From Propionibacterium sp. (GTDB taxonomy: Bacteria; Actinomycetota; Actinomycetes; Propionibacteriales; Propionibacteriaceae), in assembly GCA_012839035.1 (NCBI GenBank), contig DUOB01000009.1:1-64000 (forward strand): a stretch of DNA of 64,000 nucleotides. The letters run 5' to 3'. A program made the position numbers and the translations under genes. The notes below the pieces were generated by a model. That model made no database searches. It worked only from the letters and a program-made list of their open reading frames with translations, and was not told the origin of the DNA. Positions 8,562-17,202 of the stretch are shown here, piece by piece. The first letter of the stretch is position 1. Every line of letters starts with the position of its first letter.

Positions 8562-9860
8562 ATGTCGGTCCGCAGCGCTTATGCCGCGAAACTTGTTGAT
8601 GCCGCGACGGCCGTCGGCCATGTGCAGGACGGGGACGCGATCGTGGTGCCACTCGGTGCGGGAGAGCCGCCGACGCTGCTGCACGCGCTGTCCGCACGCC
8701 GGCATGAGTTGCGCAAGGTCACGGTGTTCCAACTGGTGGCGCTCAGGCACTATGACTACTACGACCCCGATACCGCGGAGAACGTCCGGCACCTGACGCC
8801 CTTTGTCGGCGCGGCGAGCCGCCGGGCGGTGAACGGTGGGTGGGCCGATTTCATCCCGGCGCACTTCTCCGAACTGCCCGGCCTCATCCGCTCCGAGCAG
8901 CTCGGCTCGGACGTCGTTCTCGCCCAGTGCTCGCCGATGGACGAGCACGGATTCTTCGCGCTGGGACTGAGCACGGACTACACCCTCGCCGCCGTGAGCA
9001 AGGCCCGGACCATCGTGCTCGAGGTCAACGAAAAGCTGCCGTTCACTTTCGGCAACTGCCACGTGCACGTCAGCAGGGTCGCGGCGATCGTCGAGTCCGA
9101 GCATCCACTGGCCACCCTTCCCGGCACGAGTGTGGGGGACGTCGAGAGGGCCATCGCCCGCAACGTCGCTGATCTCATTCCGGATGGCGCGACCCTCCAG
9201 ATCGGCATTGGCGGCATCCCCGACGCCGTCGTCGCCCAGTTGATGACCAAGAACGATCTCGGTCTGCACACCGAGATGATCGGCGATGGCCCGCTCGCGT
9301 TGATCGAGGCAGGTGTGGTCACGAACAACCACAAGAACGTCAACCGAGGCAAGGCCGTGGCAACGTTCGCGCTCGGCAGTGACAGGCTCTATGCCTGGAT
9401 GAATCGCAACCCCTCCATCGAGATGCGTCCCGTGGACGAGGTGAACGCGCCGCCGATCGCGGCCCTCAACGACAACCTCCACTCGATCAACTCGACGATG
9501 GCGATCGACCTGGTCGGCCAGTGCGCCTCGGAGGGCATCGGGACCCGGCTCTATTCGGGCACGGGCGGTCAGTTCGACTTCGTCCGCGCGGCCAACATCT
9601 CCAAGGGCGGCCGGTCGATCATCGCGGTCCCGGCGACGGCCAAGGGCGGAGAATTATCGACGATCGTGGTCTCCCACGTGCCGGGTACGCCGATCACGAC
9701 TCTGCGCAACGACGTGAACTTCGTCTGCACCGAATTCGGGACCGCCAAGCTCCGTGGTGCGTCCCTCCACGAGCGGGCCGAGCAGTTGATTTCGATCGCG
9801 CACCCGGACTTCCGCGACGAGCTCACCGAGCAGGCCAAGGAGCTGCACATCCTGCACTGA
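8562..9860 (+). CDS. Acetyl-CoA hydrolase/transferase family (4-hydroxybutyrate CoA-transferase-like)
   Basis: 432 aa; IPDGATLQIGIGGIPDAVVAQL, GTGGQFDFVRAA, RLRGASLHERAEQLISIAHPDFRDEL; RBS GGAGGA before ATG. Confidence 0.88.
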   Translation: MSVRSAYAAKLVDAATAVGHVQDGDAIVVPLGAGEPPTLLHALSARRHELRKVTVFQLVALRHYDYYDPDTAENVRHLTPFVGAASRRAVNGGWADFIPAHFSELPGLIRSEQLGSDVVLAQCSPMDEHGFFALGLSTDYTLAAVSKARTIVLEVNEKLPFTFGNCHVHVSRVAAIVESEHPLATLPGTSVGDVERAIARNVADLIPDGATLQIGIGGIPDAVVAQLMTKNDLGLHTEMIGDGPLALIEAGVVTNNHKNVNRGKAVATFALGSDRLYAWMNRNPSIEMRPVDEVNAPPIAALNDNLHSINSTMAIDLVGQCASEGIGTRLYSGTGGQFDFVRAANISKGGRSIIAVPATAKGGELSTIVVSHVPGTPITTLRNDVNFVCTEFGTAKLRGASLHERAEQLISIAHPDFRDELTEQAKELHILH

Positions 9861-9935: not shown

Positions 9936-11156
9936 GTGACAATGGGCAGCATGGCTGTTGAGATTGGCGTGCCCGGGGTCACCGATGCGGTGCAGATCGG
10001 TCAGGGCGGGTTCGGCAAGGTGTATCGGGCGCACCAGTCCGACCTCAATCGTGACGTCGCTGTCAAGGTGCTCACGAACGTGGACCTCGATGAGGAGGCC
10101 CAGCAGCGCTTCACCCGGGAGGCCCGCGCGATCGGTCGGTTGAGCGGCCATCCCAACGTGGTCGATGTCTATGCCCAGGGTCTCACCGACGACGGCGCTC
10201 CCTATCTGATCATGGAGTTGTGCGCCGGTGGCTCGCTCGGTGACCGCGTCAAACGGGGTCGGCCGCTGACCTGGCAGGAAGCGACCGAGAACGTCGTCGC
10301 GATCTCCGGGGCCCTGCAAACCGCGCACGCGGTCGGCATCCTGCACCGCGACATCAAACCCGCCAATCTGCTGGTCGATTCCTATGGCACGGCGAAGCTG
10401 GCCGACTTCGGGATCGCCCACGTCGGCAGTGAGGCAACGATGACCGCGACCGGCACGATGGCCGGGTCCCCGGCCCACATCGCGCCCGAGCTGATCATGG
10501 GCCAGAAGCCCACCCCGGCCAGCGACGTCTATTCGATGGCCTCCACCCTCTTCGCGCTGATCACCGGTCAGGCACCGTTCGTGCGGGAGGGGGACACCTC
10601 GCTGCTGCCCCTCATCCAGCGCATCACCCACGAGCCCGCGCCACACCTGGGTCAGTGGGGCGTACCCCCACCCATCGCCGACATCATCGCCGCCGCCATG
10701 GCGAAGAACCCGGCGGCCCGCCCGCAGTCGATCGAGGAGTTCGCGCAGGCGCTGATGACCGCACGCGGCCGGCTCGGCCTCCCGCCCGGGGACTATCGCG
10801 TTCAGCGGGCCGCTACCCCGGCGGTCGATTCCGGTCTGACGATGGTGCCGGCGGGCTATCCGACGCCGAGGGGGAGGGGTACGCCGCCACCGCCTGCCCA
10901 CCCCGCTCCGCAGCCCGGTCCAGCTCCCTATCCGGCCCATCCCCCGACACCCGGCGGCTGGCAGCCGCAGGTCCCAGCCGGAGCGGGCGGGGGCATGGTC
11001 GCTGCCAACACAGCGGAGGGTTCGAACGGTCGGGGGATCATCATCGCGTGCTGGGCCGTGGTGGTGGTGTGCCTGGTGGCAATGATCTGGATGTTGGTCC
11101 GGCGGGCGCAGCTGATGCAGGTCAGCGCACCGCTGCTGTCCCCGTTCTGGCCATGA
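9936..11156 (+). CDS. Ser/Thr protein kinase with single C-terminal TM helix
   Basis: IGQGGFGKVYRA glycine loop, HRDIKPANLL, ADFGIAH, C-terminal GIIIACWAVVVVCLVAMIWML hydrophobic segment; exact start uncertain (9936-9951). Confidence 0.92.
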   Translation: MTMGSMAVEIGVPGVTDAVQIGQGGFGKVYRAHQSDLNRDVAVKVLTNVDLDEEAQQRFTREARAIGRLSGHPNVVDVYAQGLTDDGAPYLIMELCAGGSLGDRVKRGRPLTWQEATENVVAISGALQTAHAVGILHRDIKPANLLVDSYGTAKLADFGIAHVGSEATMTATGTMAGSPAHIAPELIMGQKPTPASDVYSMASTLFALITGQAPFVREGDTSLLPLIQRITHEPAPHLGQWGVPPPIADIIAAAMAKNPAARPQSIEEFAQALMTARGRLGLPPGDYRVQRAATPAVDSGLTMVPAGYPTPRGRGTPPPPAHPAPQPGPAPYPAHPPTPGGWQPQVPAGAGGGMVAANTAEGSNGRGIIIACWAVVVVCLVAMIWMLVRRAQLMQVSAPLLSPFWP

Positions 11157-12676
11157 CCAGCGGGCCCGGCTCCTCCGGCGATCTCACCGAGCGCCTGCGG
11201 ACGACATCGACGTGGACCGACGAGATGCTCGCGGAGGCCGGGATCCCCGTCGCGCACGTGCCCTTCGTCAGCGTGGGCGGCGGGTTCGGGTCCTTCGTGC
11301 TGGCCGATCGGTTGCGGATCTATGGCGTACCCCCCGAGCAGATCAAGGTCGTCTCCCCACGACCGAACGCCTGGGATACCTATCGGCACCTCGCGACGGT
11401 CTCCCAGATCCCGGATCACGAACGGATCCGGTCCGACTCCGCCTCCTGTCCGGACAACCTGTGGGGATATCCGAGCTATGCCTTCACCGAGGCCTGGCAG
11501 AAGAAGTCGTTGCGCCGGATCTGGCAGGTGGCGACCGAGCCGATCCTCGACGACTATTTCACTCCCCAGGCCGGGCAGGTCTATGCCGCGACGGCCAAGG
11601 AGGCCGAGCGGATCGGGTGGGCGGGGATGGTGCAGCCGGGCCGGGCACGGATGGTACGCCGGCACGCTGCCGGCGGTTATGTCGTCCTCGTCACCCCGCC
11701 GGCGGGTTGGGCACAGACCCGGCGGGTGGCGTACCGCTGCCGCTGGGCCCACATCGCCGTCGGCTATCCCGGGGTCAACTTCACCCCCGATCTGCAGGAC
11801 TATCGCCAGCGCACCGGCGATTTCACCCATGTGGTGAACGCCTATGAGCCGCACGAGCACGTCTATGAACAGCTGCGGGGACGCGGCGGGCGGGTGCTGG
11901 TGCGTGGCTCCGGGATCGTGGGTTCGCGCATCCTGCAGCGGCTGCTCGATGAAGTCGAGCGCCACGGTGCCCGGATCCAGGTGCTGCACCTGTTCCGCAC
12001 CTGGCGCGACGGCACCGCCGGGCCGTTGACGTTCCGGCGGGAGGCGAAGAACGGATTCCAGTACCAGGCGTTCAACTATGCGAAGGCCGCCTGGGGCGGC
12101 CAGCTCAAGGAGAAGCTCGAACGGCTCACCGGACAGGAACGCGCCGACTTCATCAAGGCCATGGGCGGCACCAACACCCCGCACCGCAAGGCATGGGACA
12201 CGCAGCTCGATCGGGCGCGCGCCTCGGGCGTCTATCGGGCAGCGGTCGGCACCGTGCAGTCGGTCGATCGCGGACAGACCGGGATCCAAACGACCCTCCG
12301 CACCCCCGACGGCACCACCACGCCGTTGGAGGCGGACTACATCATCGATGCCACGGGCCTGGTCGCCGACCTCAAGCAGTCCCAGCTCCTCGCCGACCTG
12401 CTCGAGCACACCGGTGCGGGCCGCAATCCGATGCGCCGGCTGGATGTGTCGAACCATTTCGAGATCACGGGTACGCGGAGTGAGCCGGGGCGCCTCTATG
12501 CCTCCGGCTCCATCACGCTGGGCGGGCCGTTCGCGCCGGTCGATTCCTTCCTCGGCCTGCAATACGTCGCCCAGCAGATCTCCGACGACCTGGTCCGGCA
12601 GGGGTTCGCGCCGAAGTTCGGCCCCGGGCGCTCGGTCGCGCAGTGGTGGCGCTGGGTCAAGGGGGTGGCGCCGTGA
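11153..12676 (+). CDS. FAD/NAD(P)-binding oxidoreductase-like protein
   Basis: From ATG 11153 (ATGA overlap with kinase stop); VSVGGGFGSFVLADRLR and VLVRGSGIVGSRILQRLLDEVE Rossmann-type motifs, DYIIDATGL. Confidence 0.75.
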   Translation: MTSGPGSSGDLTERLRTTSTWTDEMLAEAGIPVAHVPFVSVGGGFGSFVLADRLRIYGVPPEQIKVVSPRPNAWDTYRHLATVSQIPDHERIRSDSASCPDNLWGYPSYAFTEAWQKKSLRRIWQVATEPILDDYFTPQAGQVYAATAKEAERIGWAGMVQPGRARMVRRHAAGGYVVLVTPPAGWAQTRRVAYRCRWAHIAVGYPGVNFTPDLQDYRQRTGDFTHVVNAYEPHEHVYEQLRGRGGRVLVRGSGIVGSRILQRLLDEVERHGARIQVLHLFRTWRDGTAGPLTFRREAKNGFQYQAFNYAKAAWGGQLKEKLERLTGQERADFIKAMGGTNTPHRKAWDTQLDRARASGVYRAAVGTVQSVDRGQTGIQTTLRTPDGTTTPLEADYIIDATGLVADLKQSQLLADLLEHTGAGRNPMRRLDVSNHFEITGTRSEPGRLYASGSITLGGPFAPVDSFLGLQYVAQQISDDLVRQGFAPKFGPGRSVAQWWRWVKGVAP

Positions 12677-13095
12677 CCCCGACACTGTTCGGCCGCATCC
12701 AGACCCGTTGGTTCGTCCTGCTCGTCATCGGCATCCCCTGGACGGTGTTCCTGATGGGTTTCGCGGCGTTGGCCGGCTCGTCCTATGGATCCCTGCTCCT
12801 CGGTGGGCTGATGGTCCTGGGGGTGGTGGGCCTGTTGGGCACGGTCTGGGAGTTCGCCTATCACGGGCTCCAACAGTTGCGCTGGGAGAAGGACTGGCCC
12901 GCGCTGTTCGGCTTTCTCACGATCATCAACGAGGGTCTGGTGCTGGCGCTGGTCATGGTGCTGCTCGACCGTCCGCTCGGACCGCTCGGCTGGTTCCACT
13001 TCGTGACCACGTGGCTGTGGATGTGGGTCTGGGTCAACGGTCCGATGCGGGTCGTCGCGCCCCGGTGGCGCTATCGCGGGGGAAGGCTGTTCTGA
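12673..13095 (+). CDS. Small integral membrane protein, function unknown
   Basis: GTG start overlapping upstream stop (GTGA); about 4 hydrophobic segments, VTPTLFGRIQTRWFVLLVIGIPW... Confidence 0.75.
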   Translation: MTPTLFGRIQTRWFVLLVIGIPWTVFLMGFAALAGSSYGSLLLGGLMVLGVVGLLGTVWEFAYHGLQQLRWEKDWPALFGFLTIINEGLVLALVMVLLDRPLGPLGWFHFVTTWLWMWVWVNGPMRVVAPRWRYRGGRLF

Positions 13096-13096
13096 G

Positions 13097-14311
13097 ATGG
13101 ACCTCTCCTTCGTCGATGAGGCGGCGACGCGACGGGCAGCCCTCGTCCAGCGACGGAAGCGGCTCGGCTATCTCGTGCCCGCCACGATCACGCTCGCCTG
13201 GCTGATCGGTCTCACCGTGTTCGGGCTCTGGCCCCGGGTCCTCGACAACTGGGCGGCGTTCCTGACGATGGTCGTCGGGTCGTTCGTGGCGGGCTCGACG
13301 CCCCAGGGCGGCGGCGCGGTCGCCTTCCCCGTGTTCACGAAAGGGCTCGGAATCTCCGCCGAGGTCGCTCGCGTGTTCTCCCTCTGCATCCAGACGATCG
13401 GCATGGGATCGGCCGCCCTCGTCATCCTGATCCGCCGGGTGCCGGTCGATGGGTTCGCGCTTCGGCTGGGCATCCCGTCGGCGCTCGTCGGGTTTTTTCT
13501 CGGGATCCACATGCTGAGCGACACCACCCGCCCGTTCTGGCCGTCGCTGCTCCCGGGTGCCTATCTCAAAGTCGCCTTCACCCTCCTCATCATGACCACG
13601 GCGACGATCGTGTGGCTGGGATCGCGAGTCCCGGTGCGGGAGGTACGCAGCCGGATCCGCCCCGCCGGTCCACGGCAGGGTGCGCTCCTCGTTGCGGCCA
13701 CGTTCATCGGCGGGGTGGCGTCGTCTCAGCTCGGATCGGGTGCGGACGTGTTCTTCTTCCTGGTCGCAGCGGTGCTGTTGGGCCTGGAGCCGCGGGTCGG
13801 CGTACCCACCTCCGTCATCATCATGGCCAGCGTCTCCGCCGCCGGTCTCGCCTATCTGGGGCTCGTCCACGGGATGCTCAACGTCGGCGTGCAGGGTGAT
13901 CAGGTGATCTCGATCGGCGGCCACCTGCTCGCCACACCGCTGAACGCCGGGCGCAACGACCTGCTCGGGCTCTGGCTCGCGGGGACTCTCGCGGCGTGTT
14001 GGACCGCCCCGCTCGGAGCTGCATTCGCCGCGGCCGTGTCGAACCGGGTGCTCGTCGGGTTCGTGGCAGCGCTCGCGCTCCTCGAGGTCATCACGACCAT
14101 CCTCTTCCTGCCGCAACTGCGCACGGATCCGGGGCTCACGGCGTTCGCCGTGGCTTCCGCGGTCGTGATGATGGTCGCGCTGTGGCTGGGGGATCGTTAT
14201 CGACACCGCATCGCCGGGACCGTCCTCGACGGGCGGGCATCGCTGGGTCGGGACGAGGTGGAGGCGGTGCCCGAGTACGCCGACCGCACCGAACGAGGGA
14301 GCCGCCAGTGA
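13097..14311 (+). CDS. TauE/SafE (TSUP) family permease
   Basis: 404 aa polytopic protein; VVGSFVAGSTPQGGGAVAFPVFTKGLGI and FIGGVASSQLGSGADVFFFLV resemble the duplicated TSUP signature. Confidence 0.75.
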   Translation: MDLSFVDEAATRRAALVQRRKRLGYLVPATITLAWLIGLTVFGLWPRVLDNWAAFLTMVVGSFVAGSTPQGGGAVAFPVFTKGLGISAEVARVFSLCIQTIGMGSAALVILIRRVPVDGFALRLGIPSALVGFFLGIHMLSDTTRPFWPSLLPGAYLKVAFTLLIMTTATIVWLGSRVPVREVRSRIRPAGPRQGALLVAATFIGGVASSQLGSGADVFFFLVAAVLLGLEPRVGVPTSVIIMASVSAAGLAYLGLVHGMLNVGVQGDQVISIGGHLLATPLNAGRNDLLGLWLAGTLAACWTAPLGAAFAAAVSNRVLVGFVAALALLEVITTILFLPQLRTDPGLTAFAVASAVVMMVALWLGDRYRHRIAGTVLDGRASLGRDEVEAVPEYADRTERGSRQ

Positions 14312-15150
14312 GACGGATCGCCGACTACGAGTTCGTCCGGGAGCTCGGCACCGGCAACTACGGGACCTATTGGCTCGCGCGTACGCCGCAGCGGCTCGGC
14401 ATCGACGACGAGTTCTGTGCCGTCAAGGTCCTCGCGGCGCAGGCGAGCGGGGACGCGTTCAAGCGGATGGTGAACGAGCTGCGGCTGTTCGCGTCCGCCA
14501 AGTCTGATTGTCTGGTGACGCTGTTCGACGCCGGACACGAGGACGGTCAGCTCTTCTATGCCGCCCGCTATCACCCGCGTGGTTCGCTGGCAGAGGCGCA
14601 AGGGCTGTCGCCGGAGACGATCGTGCGGGCCGTCGCCGATGCCGCGCGGGGCGCGCACGCGCTCCATGAGCTCGGCGTGGCCCACCGGGACATCAAGCCG
14701 GCGAACATTCTGTTGACGGGATCGACGGGGAGCGCGCAACGGGCGCCTCGCGGCCCCGGCCCGACCGCGGTCCTCGCCGATCTCGGGTTGGCGCAGCGGT
14801 TGTCCCCGGGCCAGACGGTCACGGGGCTCGGGCCGATCGGCACCCTCGCCTTCATGGAACCCGGCGTCGCCCGCGGGCTTCCCGCCGGTCGGGCCTCGGA
14901 CATCTGGGGGCTGGCCGCGACGCTCCAGTCGGCCCTGACCGGGGTCGATCCGTTCCCCAACCTCCCGGGCAGCACCCTCGTGCACGCCCTGCACCACCTC
15001 CTGAACACCCCGCCCACCGTGACGATCACGGATTCCCGCTGGGCGGAGATCGCGCGCCGCGGGATGGCGGCGGAGCGCGGGGAGCGTTGGCGTACGGCCC
15101 TCGATTTCGCCCACGCCCTCGACGCCACGCTGACGGGAGCGCCGCGATGA
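14308..15150 (+). CDS. Ser/Thr protein kinase (soluble, DLG in place of DFG)
   Basis: GTG start in GTGA overlap; VRELGTGNYGTYWLART, HRDIKPANIL, LADLGLAQ, ASDIWGLAATL. Confidence 0.88.
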   Translation: MRRIADYEFVRELGTGNYGTYWLARTPQRLGIDDEFCAVKVLAAQASGDAFKRMVNELRLFASAKSDCLVTLFDAGHEDGQLFYAARYHPRGSLAEAQGLSPETIVRAVADAARGAHALHELGVAHRDIKPANILLTGSTGSAQRAPRGPGPTAVLADLGLAQRLSPGQTVTGLGPIGTLAFMEPGVARGLPAGRASDIWGLAATLQSALTGVDPFPNLPGSTLVHALHHLLNTPPTVTITDSRWAEIARRGMAAERGERWRTALDFAHALDATLTGAPR

Positions 15151-16259
15151 GTGCGCCCGCGGTGCGCGTCGGGGCAGGCAACGGTGTTGCCGTGCGGGTG
15201 AAGGACCTGATCGCCTGGTTCGTGCCGCCGCCCGGCACCGAAACGGCCGGGCTCGTCCGGTCGCTCGTTCTCGCGGAGGACGCGGCCTCCGGGCTGCCAT
15301 TGGGTCCGTTGACGGAGTTGAGACGGAGTACGCCGGGTCTGTCCCTCGCCGTCGTCTCGCTGGGCCTCGAGTTCGGTCAGGCATGGGTGTGCGGTGACGC
15401 GGTCGTGACCATCGACGGCCCGGACGACCGGAGTGAGGTTCGCGTACGCGACGCCACCGGTGTCGCACAGCGGACGTTTCCGCTGCCCCGCTATGCGGTG
15501 CGGCTCGGAGAGGTCGGTGTCGGAGATACCTGGAGCCACCTCATCGAAGGGGCGGTGCCGGCGGGTGGGATCGCGATCGTCTGGGACCCGAGCCGCCATC
15601 CGCAGATGCCGGTCCGCCCGGTCGGCACCGCACACGGCCGAGTCGAGAGCCCGAGCCCCCTGGAAGGTGCGATCCCGGCGCCTGCCCAGCCCGGTCGGCC
15701 TCGTGCGGAAGTGGTGTCCCTCCTGGGTGGACAGGCCACCGGCACGCGGGCGCCCCTGCCGCTGGCGGGGGCGGAGGAGGAGTCGGTCGATCAGATCGAG
15801 GTGCCCGGTCTGCGGTGCGCACGCGGTCACTTCAACCACCCGCATGCGGCGAACTGCGCTTGGTGCGGCCTCGGCATGATCCAGGTCTCCCACGTGCTGG
15901 TGAAACGGCCGCGGCCTTCGCTGGGGGTGCTAGTCGTCGATGGGCGGGCCACGTTCACACTCGATGCCGACTATGTCCTGGGACGCATGCCGCACGTCGT
16001 GCCGGAGGTCGATGGCCGTCGGGTACGGGAGATCGTGCTCTCCGCCGACCGGGCCATCAGCCGCGCGCATGCCGCGATCCGCCTCGTGGAATGGGACGTG
16101 TGCGTCGAGGACCTCGGCTCGGGCATCGGGACCTGGATCCAGCAGCCGGGACAGATGCCGTTCCAGCTTCCGCCGGGCCAGCGGGTGCCGTTGGCGCCGG
16201 GGGCGACGGTGCACATCGGACCGCACCGCTTGACCTTCCACTCGCACTTCCTGCGCTGA
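15147..16259 (+). CDS. FHA-domain protein with CxxGH..CxxC zinc-ribbon-like linker
   Basis: ATGA overlap with kinase; LRCARGHFNHPHAANCAWCGLGM then YVLGRMP...RAISRAHAAIRLVEWDVCVEDLGSGIGTWI (FHA motifs). Confidence 0.88.
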   Translation: MSAPAVRVGAGNGVAVRVKDLIAWFVPPPGTETAGLVRSLVLAEDAASGLPLGPLTELRRSTPGLSLAVVSLGLEFGQAWVCGDAVVTIDGPDDRSEVRVRDATGVAQRTFPLPRYAVRLGEVGVGDTWSHLIEGAVPAGGIAIVWDPSRHPQMPVRPVGTAHGRVESPSPLEGAIPAPAQPGRPRAEVVSLLGGQATGTRAPLPLAGAEEESVDQIEVPGLRCARGHFNHPHAANCAWCGLGMIQVSHVLVKRPRPSLGVLVVDGRATFTLDADYVLGRMPHVVPEVDGRRVREIVLSADRAISRAHAAIRLVEWDVCVEDLGSGIGTWIQQPGQMPFQLPPGQRVPLAPGATVHIGPHRLTFHSHFLR

Positions 16260-16266
16260 GCGGATG

Positions 16267-17202
16267 TCAGCAGGCTCCCGCGGACAGATCCCCGAGGTGG
16301 CCGCGCAACCAGTCGGCCGTCCGGGAGAGGGTGGTCGTCCCCTGATCGAAACTGGGAGCATCCACCGCGATCGCCACGGCGACCCGGCCCGTCGGCGTCG
16401 GCACGACCCCGAACTGTCGCACCAGATAGCCGGCCGAGGAAGGCCCCCAGCCGCCCTTGAAGCGGCTGCCCGTCAGCCGGCCCAGACCCCATTGCTGACT
16501 GGGCGCGATATTGCCCATCGCTGCATAGACGGGTTCTGCCTCGGCCCGACACGGGAGCTGGGCCGCGAACCTCGCCTGATCGGCCAGCGACCACCGGGTC
16601 TGCCCGAACGCCGTATAGGGCGGGCGGACCTGTTCCGCCTGGGTGTGTGTGCGGTGGTCGCCGAAGTTCCTGAGTACGCGGTCCGTGGCCGCCGCGGCCT
16701 CCGCGGGTGACCCCAACGACTGCCACAGCCGGATCGCCGCGTCATTGTCGGAGGCGGTGATCGCGCTGCGCATCGTCGGACGGAGTTCGGGGCCCTGCGG
16801 CGTACCCTCCACCGCGATCGCCACCGGCACCTTCGACGTCGACCAGGCGACTGGGTCACCCGGATCACCGAGGACGGTGGGGGTGGCGGTGGAGCCGACA
16901 GGAACGACCGCGACGGACACCCGGCCCTGCTGCGTCGCCGCGAACCGTGCGAACGATGCGGGGAGATCCTCAGCGGCGGCAACGGGCGGCGATGGGGAAG
17001 GGTCCGACTCGGAGCCGGCCGGCGGGAGGGCGGAGGACTGCGGGATCTGGCTGAGGACGCCGGGAGACGGCCCAGCGGTGGACGGTGGCGGAGCAGCGCC
17101 GGTGGCCGGAGGGGGCGGAGCAGTGGTGGTGGCGGGAGTCGCAGCGGACGAGCATCCGACGAGCAGCACTGCGATGAGGCTCAGACCGAGCGTGGTCCGC
17201 AT
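16267..17202 (-). CDS. Serine hydrolase lipoprotein, class A beta-lactamase/transpeptidase-like fold
   Basis: Lipobox-like VLLVGC; STSK (SxxK), SDN and KGG motifs in order. Confidence 0.75.
   Translation of the reverse strand: MRTTLGLSLIAVLLVGCSSAATPATTTAPPPPATGAAPPPSTAGPSPGVLSQIPQSSALPPAGSESDPSPSPPVAAAEDLPASFARFAATQQGRVSVAVVPVGSTATPTVLGDPGDPVAWSTSKVPVAIAVEGTPQGPELRPTMRSAITASDNDAAIRLWQSLGSPAEAAAATDRVLRNFGDHRTHTQAEQVRPPYTAFGQTRWSLADQARFAAQLPCRAEAEPVYAAMGNIAPSQQWGLGRLTGSRFKGGWGPSSAGYLVRQFGVVPTPTGRVAVAIAVDAPSFDQGTTTLSRTADWLRGHLGDLSAGAC

Follow-up and report, generated by a model that had tools for sequence, protein, structure and literature searches.

A six-gene operon in a Propionibacterium sp. 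genome was found to be one version of an old, conserved gene set that occurs across several classes of Actinomycetota. The operon occupies positions 9936-16259 of a 64,000-nt stretch of DNA (NCBI GenBank assembly GCA_012839035.1, contig DUOB01000009.1, positions 1 to 64,000; hereafter the window), and its six co-directional open reading frames (ORFs), read from the sequence of the + strand, encode two Ser/Thr protein kinases (K1 and K2), a flavoprotein, a small membrane protein (SMP), a TSUP-type transporter and an FHA protein. Comparison of related loci revealed that the conserved core consists of the flavoprotein, the SMP and the FHA protein, usually with the short kinase K2, and that the TSUP transporter and K1 are local options. 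As the best explanation of this arrangement, we tentatively propose that the kinase and FHA proteins control a flavoprotein complex, which in turn gates or serves a secondary transporter of exchangeable type. The genes of the window are as follows.

9936..11156, + strand: K1, Ser/Thr protein kinase (Pfam Pkinase, 3.5e-47)
11153..12676, + strand: two-dinucleotide-binding flavoprotein, described by fold and motifs (without Pfam or NCBIfam family)
12673..13095, + strand: SMP, small integral membrane protein (without Pfam family above cut-off or NCBIfam match)
13097..14311, + strand: TSUP (TauE/SafE-type) secondary transporter (TauE, 32.1 bits; cut-off 32.6)
14308..15150, + strand: K2, short Ser/Thr kinase, cytosolic and belonging to a recognisable subfamily (Pfam Pkinase, 2e-26)
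15147..16259, + strand: FHA protein (Pfam FHA, 1.4e-8)

Distribution and conservation of the gene set

The comparisons were made on sampled genomes, many of the relatives being fragments of metagenome-assembled genomes (MAGs), and genes in the relatives were called with a simple codon-bias script that gives approximate starts. A scan for the flavoprotein with one genome per species yielded 133 relatives, and the best 80 of these 133 all belong to Actinomycetota, including Nitriliruptoria, Acidimicrobiia and one Miltoncostaeaceae MAG. Within the phylum, the flavoprotein was detected in 19 of 397 sampled genomes, with strong matches in 12, the window among them, and in the family group to which the window belongs it is present in 2/148 genomes. 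A congener (locus L104) retains the complete operon.

Clustering of adjacent genes and profile-based counts over 91 core loci placed an SMP gene near the flavoprotein gene in 88 loci, an FHA gene in 78 and a K2-type kinase gene in 42, together with transporters of the Na+/H+ exchanger type (32), TSUP (8), major facilitator superfamily (MFS; 8) or SulP (4). A similar picture was obtained at the genus level for the 36 groups that had 7 kb or more of downstream sequence; here the SMP (35/36), the FHA protein (32/36) and K2 (25/36) were accompanied by an exchanger (21/36), TSUP (5), MFS (3) or SulP (2) transporter. As a genome holds only 5-8 FHA domains and 1-11 Na+/H+ exchangers, from which the chance of finding an FHA gene within 7 kb is estimated at about 4% and that of an exchanger at about 2-4%, these co-occurrences are far from chance. 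Thus, the linkage of kinase and FHA genes with a redox-type protein and a transporter, put forward in the original prediction for the window, is conserved, and the set is not limited to this species. The six-gene form itself is local, as the TSUP transporter is one of at least four swappable types and K1 was seen as an operon member only in the window and in the one congener (L104). Spread by plasmids was also considered and rejected, the sole match lying on an 11.85 Mb record that looks like a chromosome.

Parts of the set were also found apart from each other in the same genome. In G522, the flavoprotein, a DM13 protein and an antiporter are encoded at one place (L105), and the SMP, K2, FHA protein and an antiporter at a second (L148); in Rhizohabitans, the flavoprotein, SMP and FHA genes stand together (L027), and K2 adjoins an antiporter on another contig (L176). 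A divergent branch of the flavoprotein (L115-L119; about 447 aa, 23-24% identity) is likewise adjoined by a recognisable SMP relative, and its members are flanked in L116 by two FHA genes together with kinase and antiporter genes, in L117 by an FHA gene and in L119 by a kinase gene; the one member of this branch that was examined had no match in Pfam. At L105:9175-19998, the flavoprotein, the DM13 "electron transfer" protein and the antiporter directly end an operon of PknB-type kinase, penicillin-binding protein, FtsW/RodA, PP2C and FHA genes. In addition, at L087:10946-15340 (Rhizohabitans) and L094 (Actinokineospora), a gene for a large protein, of FHA type in Rhizohabitans, and additional genes lie downstream of the flavoprotein pair. 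Those at L087 include a methyltransferase gene, and this gene content hints at a biosynthetic version of the module.

Organization of the operon

The four 4-nt start/stop overlaps (ATGA at 11153-11156, GTGA at 12673-12676, GTGA at 14308-14311 and ATGA at 15147-15150) and the 1-nt gap at the SMP/TSUP junction (stop TGA at 13093-13095, ATG at 13097), from which the operon had originally been recognized, were confirmed from the sequence; the start of K1 is ambiguous (GTG 9936, ATG 9942 or ATG 9951). Possible overlaps occur in 11/38 co-directional neighbour pairs of the window, with 4/5 within the operon and 7/33 outside it. Overlaps are therefore not rare in this genome and on their own provide modest evidence for a linked set, conservation elsewhere being the stronger evidence against chance. 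The interior of the operon showed no sigma-70-type promoter match and no terminator matches exceeding the shuffle mean, which is weak evidence. A convergent ORF (16267-17202, - strand) ends directly after the operon, and the ORF just upstream (8562-9860) reads as acetyl-CoA hydrolase/transferase-like and seems unrelated to the module.

The flavoprotein and its small membrane partner

No family in Pfam or NCBIfam matched the flavoprotein. Its AlphaFold 2 (AF2) model is confident (mean pLDDT 90.2), and a Foldseek search of the PDB placed PvdA, SidA, KtzI and DesB at the top, with E-values of about 1e-19 to 1e-15 (best 2e-19). Aligned with these N-hydroxylating monooxygenase structures, the model has TM-scores by target of mostly 0.65-0.75 at 12-16% identity and shows the two-dinucleotide-domain fold, and the residues G42, G44, G46, G252, G254, T401 and G402 are invariant among the relatives aligned. 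The fold and motifs suggest that the protein binds flavin adenine dinucleotide (FAD).

The likeness to PvdA, SidA, DesB and KtzI concerns the overall fold and the nucleotide-binding motifs. The flavoprotein differs from them in its low identity, in lacking PF13434, the family of Lys/Orn N-hydroxylating monooxygenases, and in being tied to the SMP, with siderophore genes not seen alongside. None of 52 flavoprotein members matched PF13434 at E 0.05, the hhalign comparison with three true N-hydroxylases was weak (probability 3.6, E 0.012), and the other sequence-profile matches were weak and mixed (FSP1, NADH:ubiquinone reductase and MbtG). A siderophore N-hydroxylase was ruled out as a family membership by the PF13434 and hhalign results. 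As the fold resembles that of N-hydroxylases and PF13434 is unmatched, we name the protein a flavoprotein with an N-hydroxylase-like fold rather than an N-hydroxylase; of the "FAD oxidoreductase" originally assigned to this gene, the redox-type character is retained, and the family is replaced by a fold of the N-hydroxylating-monooxygenase kind.

The SMP has about four transmembrane segments and, in an alignment that includes divergent homologues, the motifs PTLxGRxQTR and WExxYHxLQQxRWEKDWP. A haem-binding membrane subunit was tried as its identity and rejected, since the CopD match is weak (0.016) and the single conserved His is absent from the divergent branch.

These properties bear on two other explanations. 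In the first, which we regard as rather doubtful, the module serves biosynthesis or export: at the membrane, a flavin monooxygenase would oxidise a small molecule, the transporters would move substrate, product or counter-ions, and the kinase and FHA proteins would regulate output only. The top structural matches to N-hydroxylating monooxygenases are consistent with it, as are the extra downstream genes of L087 (with the methyltransferase) and L094 and the plausibility of MFS and TSUP proteins as exporters. However, the PF13434 and hhalign results argue against it, biosynthetic partner genes are not consistent across loci, and cation/proton antiporters, which to our knowledge do not export organic products, are the commonest transporter partner.

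Alternatively, the flavoprotein and SMP may constitute a respiratory-membrane redox branch of the NAD(P)H:quinone type that is adjusted by the kinase and FHA proteins, the transporter being ungated and offsetting ion or pH imbalance. The weak profile matches to FSP1 and NADH:ubiquinone reductase point in this direction, and so do the nearly constant adjacency of SMP and flavoprotein and the DM13 "electron transfer" gene and COX1 gene that adjoin the flavoprotein in L105 and L084, respectively. We consider this branch unlikely, because N-hydroxylases came first in the fold search and the SMP lacks a conserved pair of His residues that could hold haem.

An exchangeable transporter

The position held by TSUP in the window is occupied elsewhere by a Na+/H+ exchanger-type antiporter, a SulP or an MFS transporter, and two kinds were never found in one locus. 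The window copy of TSUP is borderline, lying 0.5 bits under the PF01925 cut-off (32.1 vs 32.6); five other loci score 44.2-61.7 bits and the congener 36.9, so the subfamily as such belongs to PF01925. This subfamily occurs in 3/397 phylum genomes, in each case beside the flavoprotein gene (3/3; Fisher 2e-5). A quick tree built from 95 flavoproteins, with deep branches that are long and unsettled, requires at least four changes of transporter class, with TSUP in divergent branches, the exchanger in most, SulP in Frankia/Parafrankia and MFS in a Nonomuraea/Actinomadura/Planomonospora clade. The retention of the other parts when the transporter is swapped points to a general control unit rather than a single-substrate pathway. 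An output consisting of a redox enzyme and an anion permease, as originally envisaged, is too narrow, because cation/proton antiporters occupy the same position. A C-terminal universal stress protein (Usp) match was observed in two antiporters (L116:5869-8574 and L148:10555-12777), the one at L148 falling below the curated cut-off.

Such variation could also mean that the genes share a neighbourhood and no mechanism, a signalling cluster hosting transporters and the flavoprotein pair for co-expression only. The unconserved transporter class, the Nocardia loci without K2 and without a transporter, and an operon of the MoxR/PP2C type (L150) that encodes the same N-terminal domain as the FHA protein are consistent with this reading. 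Against it, sub-sets remain together in split genomes (L148, L176), the association is kept in the branch of 23-24% identity, and the TSUP subfamily is, in the sampled genomes, reciprocally exclusive to the flavoprotein neighbourhood; we therefore judge it quite unlikely.

The kinases and the FHA protein

Both kinases carry the motifs of active Hanks-type enzymes (VAVK, HRDIKPAN and DFG in K1; AVKV, HRDIKPAN and DLG in K2). K1 consists of a PknB-like catalytic domain, a Pro-rich linker and, by hydropathy, a single C-terminal transmembrane segment (366-384), and K2 has no such segment, in agreement with the expectation of one membrane-bound and one soluble kinase. A defence system was considered and set aside: the kinases match the PD-T4-6 models of PADLOC, but these models respond to kinase domains in general, and the remaining genes gave no match.

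The N-terminal part of the FHA protein is, in its AF2 model, an alpha/beta domain (about 1-150). It is followed by a linker that is disordered, by a CxxGHFNxP...CxxC motif resembling a zinc ribbon and by the C-terminal FHA domain, for which Foldseek matched MDC1, GarA and OdhI. The conserved FHA positions (G-R, S-R-x-H and S-x-N-G-T) are kept in 33-38 of the 38 family members. Genomes with the flavoprotein encode the N-terminal domain far more often (9/12) than the others do (6/385). A degenerate PP2C, suspected from the topology, was set aside as its identity, with a single weak SpoIIE match in 38 proteins. The same domain was observed at L150:6551-16204, in an operon that by its sequence reads as kinase, PP2C, FHA and MoxR-like ATPase genes, so the domain is not exclusive to the module and extends more broadly. 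In the congener, an additional kinase and FHA pair lies just upstream of the six-gene operon (L104:5146-7070) and may have arisen by duplication of the K2-FHA end; the FHA domain of this upstream copy carries Ile where the S-x-N-G-T motif has its conserved Asn.

Proposed mechanism and comparison with known systems

In the proposed kinase- and FHA-controlled complex, the flavoprotein would bind FAD and NAD(P)H and would be held at the membrane by the SMP. K2, joined by K1 in the window, would phosphorylate threonines on one or more partners, and the FHA protein may read or compete for these phosphothreonines, so that the complex is assembled or released. The redox state or activity of the flavoprotein could then gate the transporter or work jointly with it. 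In the window version, this transporter would be of the TSUP (anion) type, and the membrane-bound K1 may pass an outside signal to the same circuit. A more specific form, which we find somewhat improbable, would make the N-hydroxylase-like flavoprotein a membrane-bound redox sensor with the SMP as partner, switched by the kinase and FHA proteins and controlling whichever transporter the lineage has plugged in (anion, cation/proton, sulfate or MFS), and thus a new phospho-redox system of Actinomycetota.

Several points weigh against the proposed complex. We infer phosphorylation, FAD binding, complex formation and transport alike, and the N-hydroxylase-like fold is equally compatible with a small-molecule enzyme. 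Residue 327 of the window FHA protein is Ile in place of the Asn of S-x-N-G-T, which is Asn in 33/38 of the family; this copy is therefore a putative phosphothreonine reader only, which qualifies the phospho-signalling role of the original prediction, its kinase/FHA linkage being retained. Transporters were not assigned nearby in 42/95 tree rows, including all 20 Nocardia loci, which also lack K2 at the locus. The antiporters examined had no KTN/RCK domain (PF00999 only, two with Usp), and a gating site like that of KefC is therefore not apparent. K2 mostly accompanies an exchanger or TSUP transporter (both in 31 cases, neither in 38, discordant in 7), but on the tree this co-variation is no more than suggestive, as the count of about 4:0 in independent pairs (median p 0.125) is too low for significance.

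A search of open-access text revealed nothing relevant on this gene set, in line with the initial impression that no described system has it. Among described systems, KefF and PknF-Rv1747 may be regarded as precedents for such couplings by analogy, and neither is a membership match. The flavoprotein KefF is an ancillary subunit of KefC, the glutathione-gated K+/H+ antiporter of Escherichia coli (PMC2920069), and the module resembles this pair where its flavoprotein accompanies an antiporter of the cation/proton exchanger class. However, KefF has the flavin mononucleotide (FMN) quinone-reductase fold and KefC carries KTN, whereas the module combines a two-dinucleotide flavoprotein with antiporters matching PF00999 only. 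Moreover, the module transporter may also be TSUP, SulP or MFS, and the kinase/FHA control is additional.

In Mycobacterium tuberculosis, the kinase PknF controls the FHA-bearing ABC transporter Rv1747, phosphorylation being coupled to transport (PMC3908365, PMC5549992). In both systems, genes for a transporter and a Ser/Thr kinase share an operon, and FHA domains are present. In contrast to Rv1747, in which FHA lies inside an ABC transporter, the FHA protein of the module is separate, the transporter is secondary (TauE, PF00999, SulP or MFS), and the flavoprotein and SMP are constant.

The module's FHA protein, itself a free protein, matches GarA and OdhI in fold. With the kinases PknG and PknB, GarA and OdhI illustrate how a free FHA protein acts as a phosphorylation-controlled regulator of enzymes. 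Their target enzymes are unrelated to the module, and its FHA protein has an added N-terminal domain and the zinc-ribbon-like motif.

Two protein families of the module, the flavoprotein and the SMP, are without a Pfam or NCBIfam entry. The gene set, old and repeatedly rearranged, links kinase and FHA proteins with a flavoprotein that is unclassified and with a transporter. For actinobacterial Ser/Thr kinases and FHA proteins, targets and outputs have been identified in only a minority of cases, and the module names concrete candidate partners for them.

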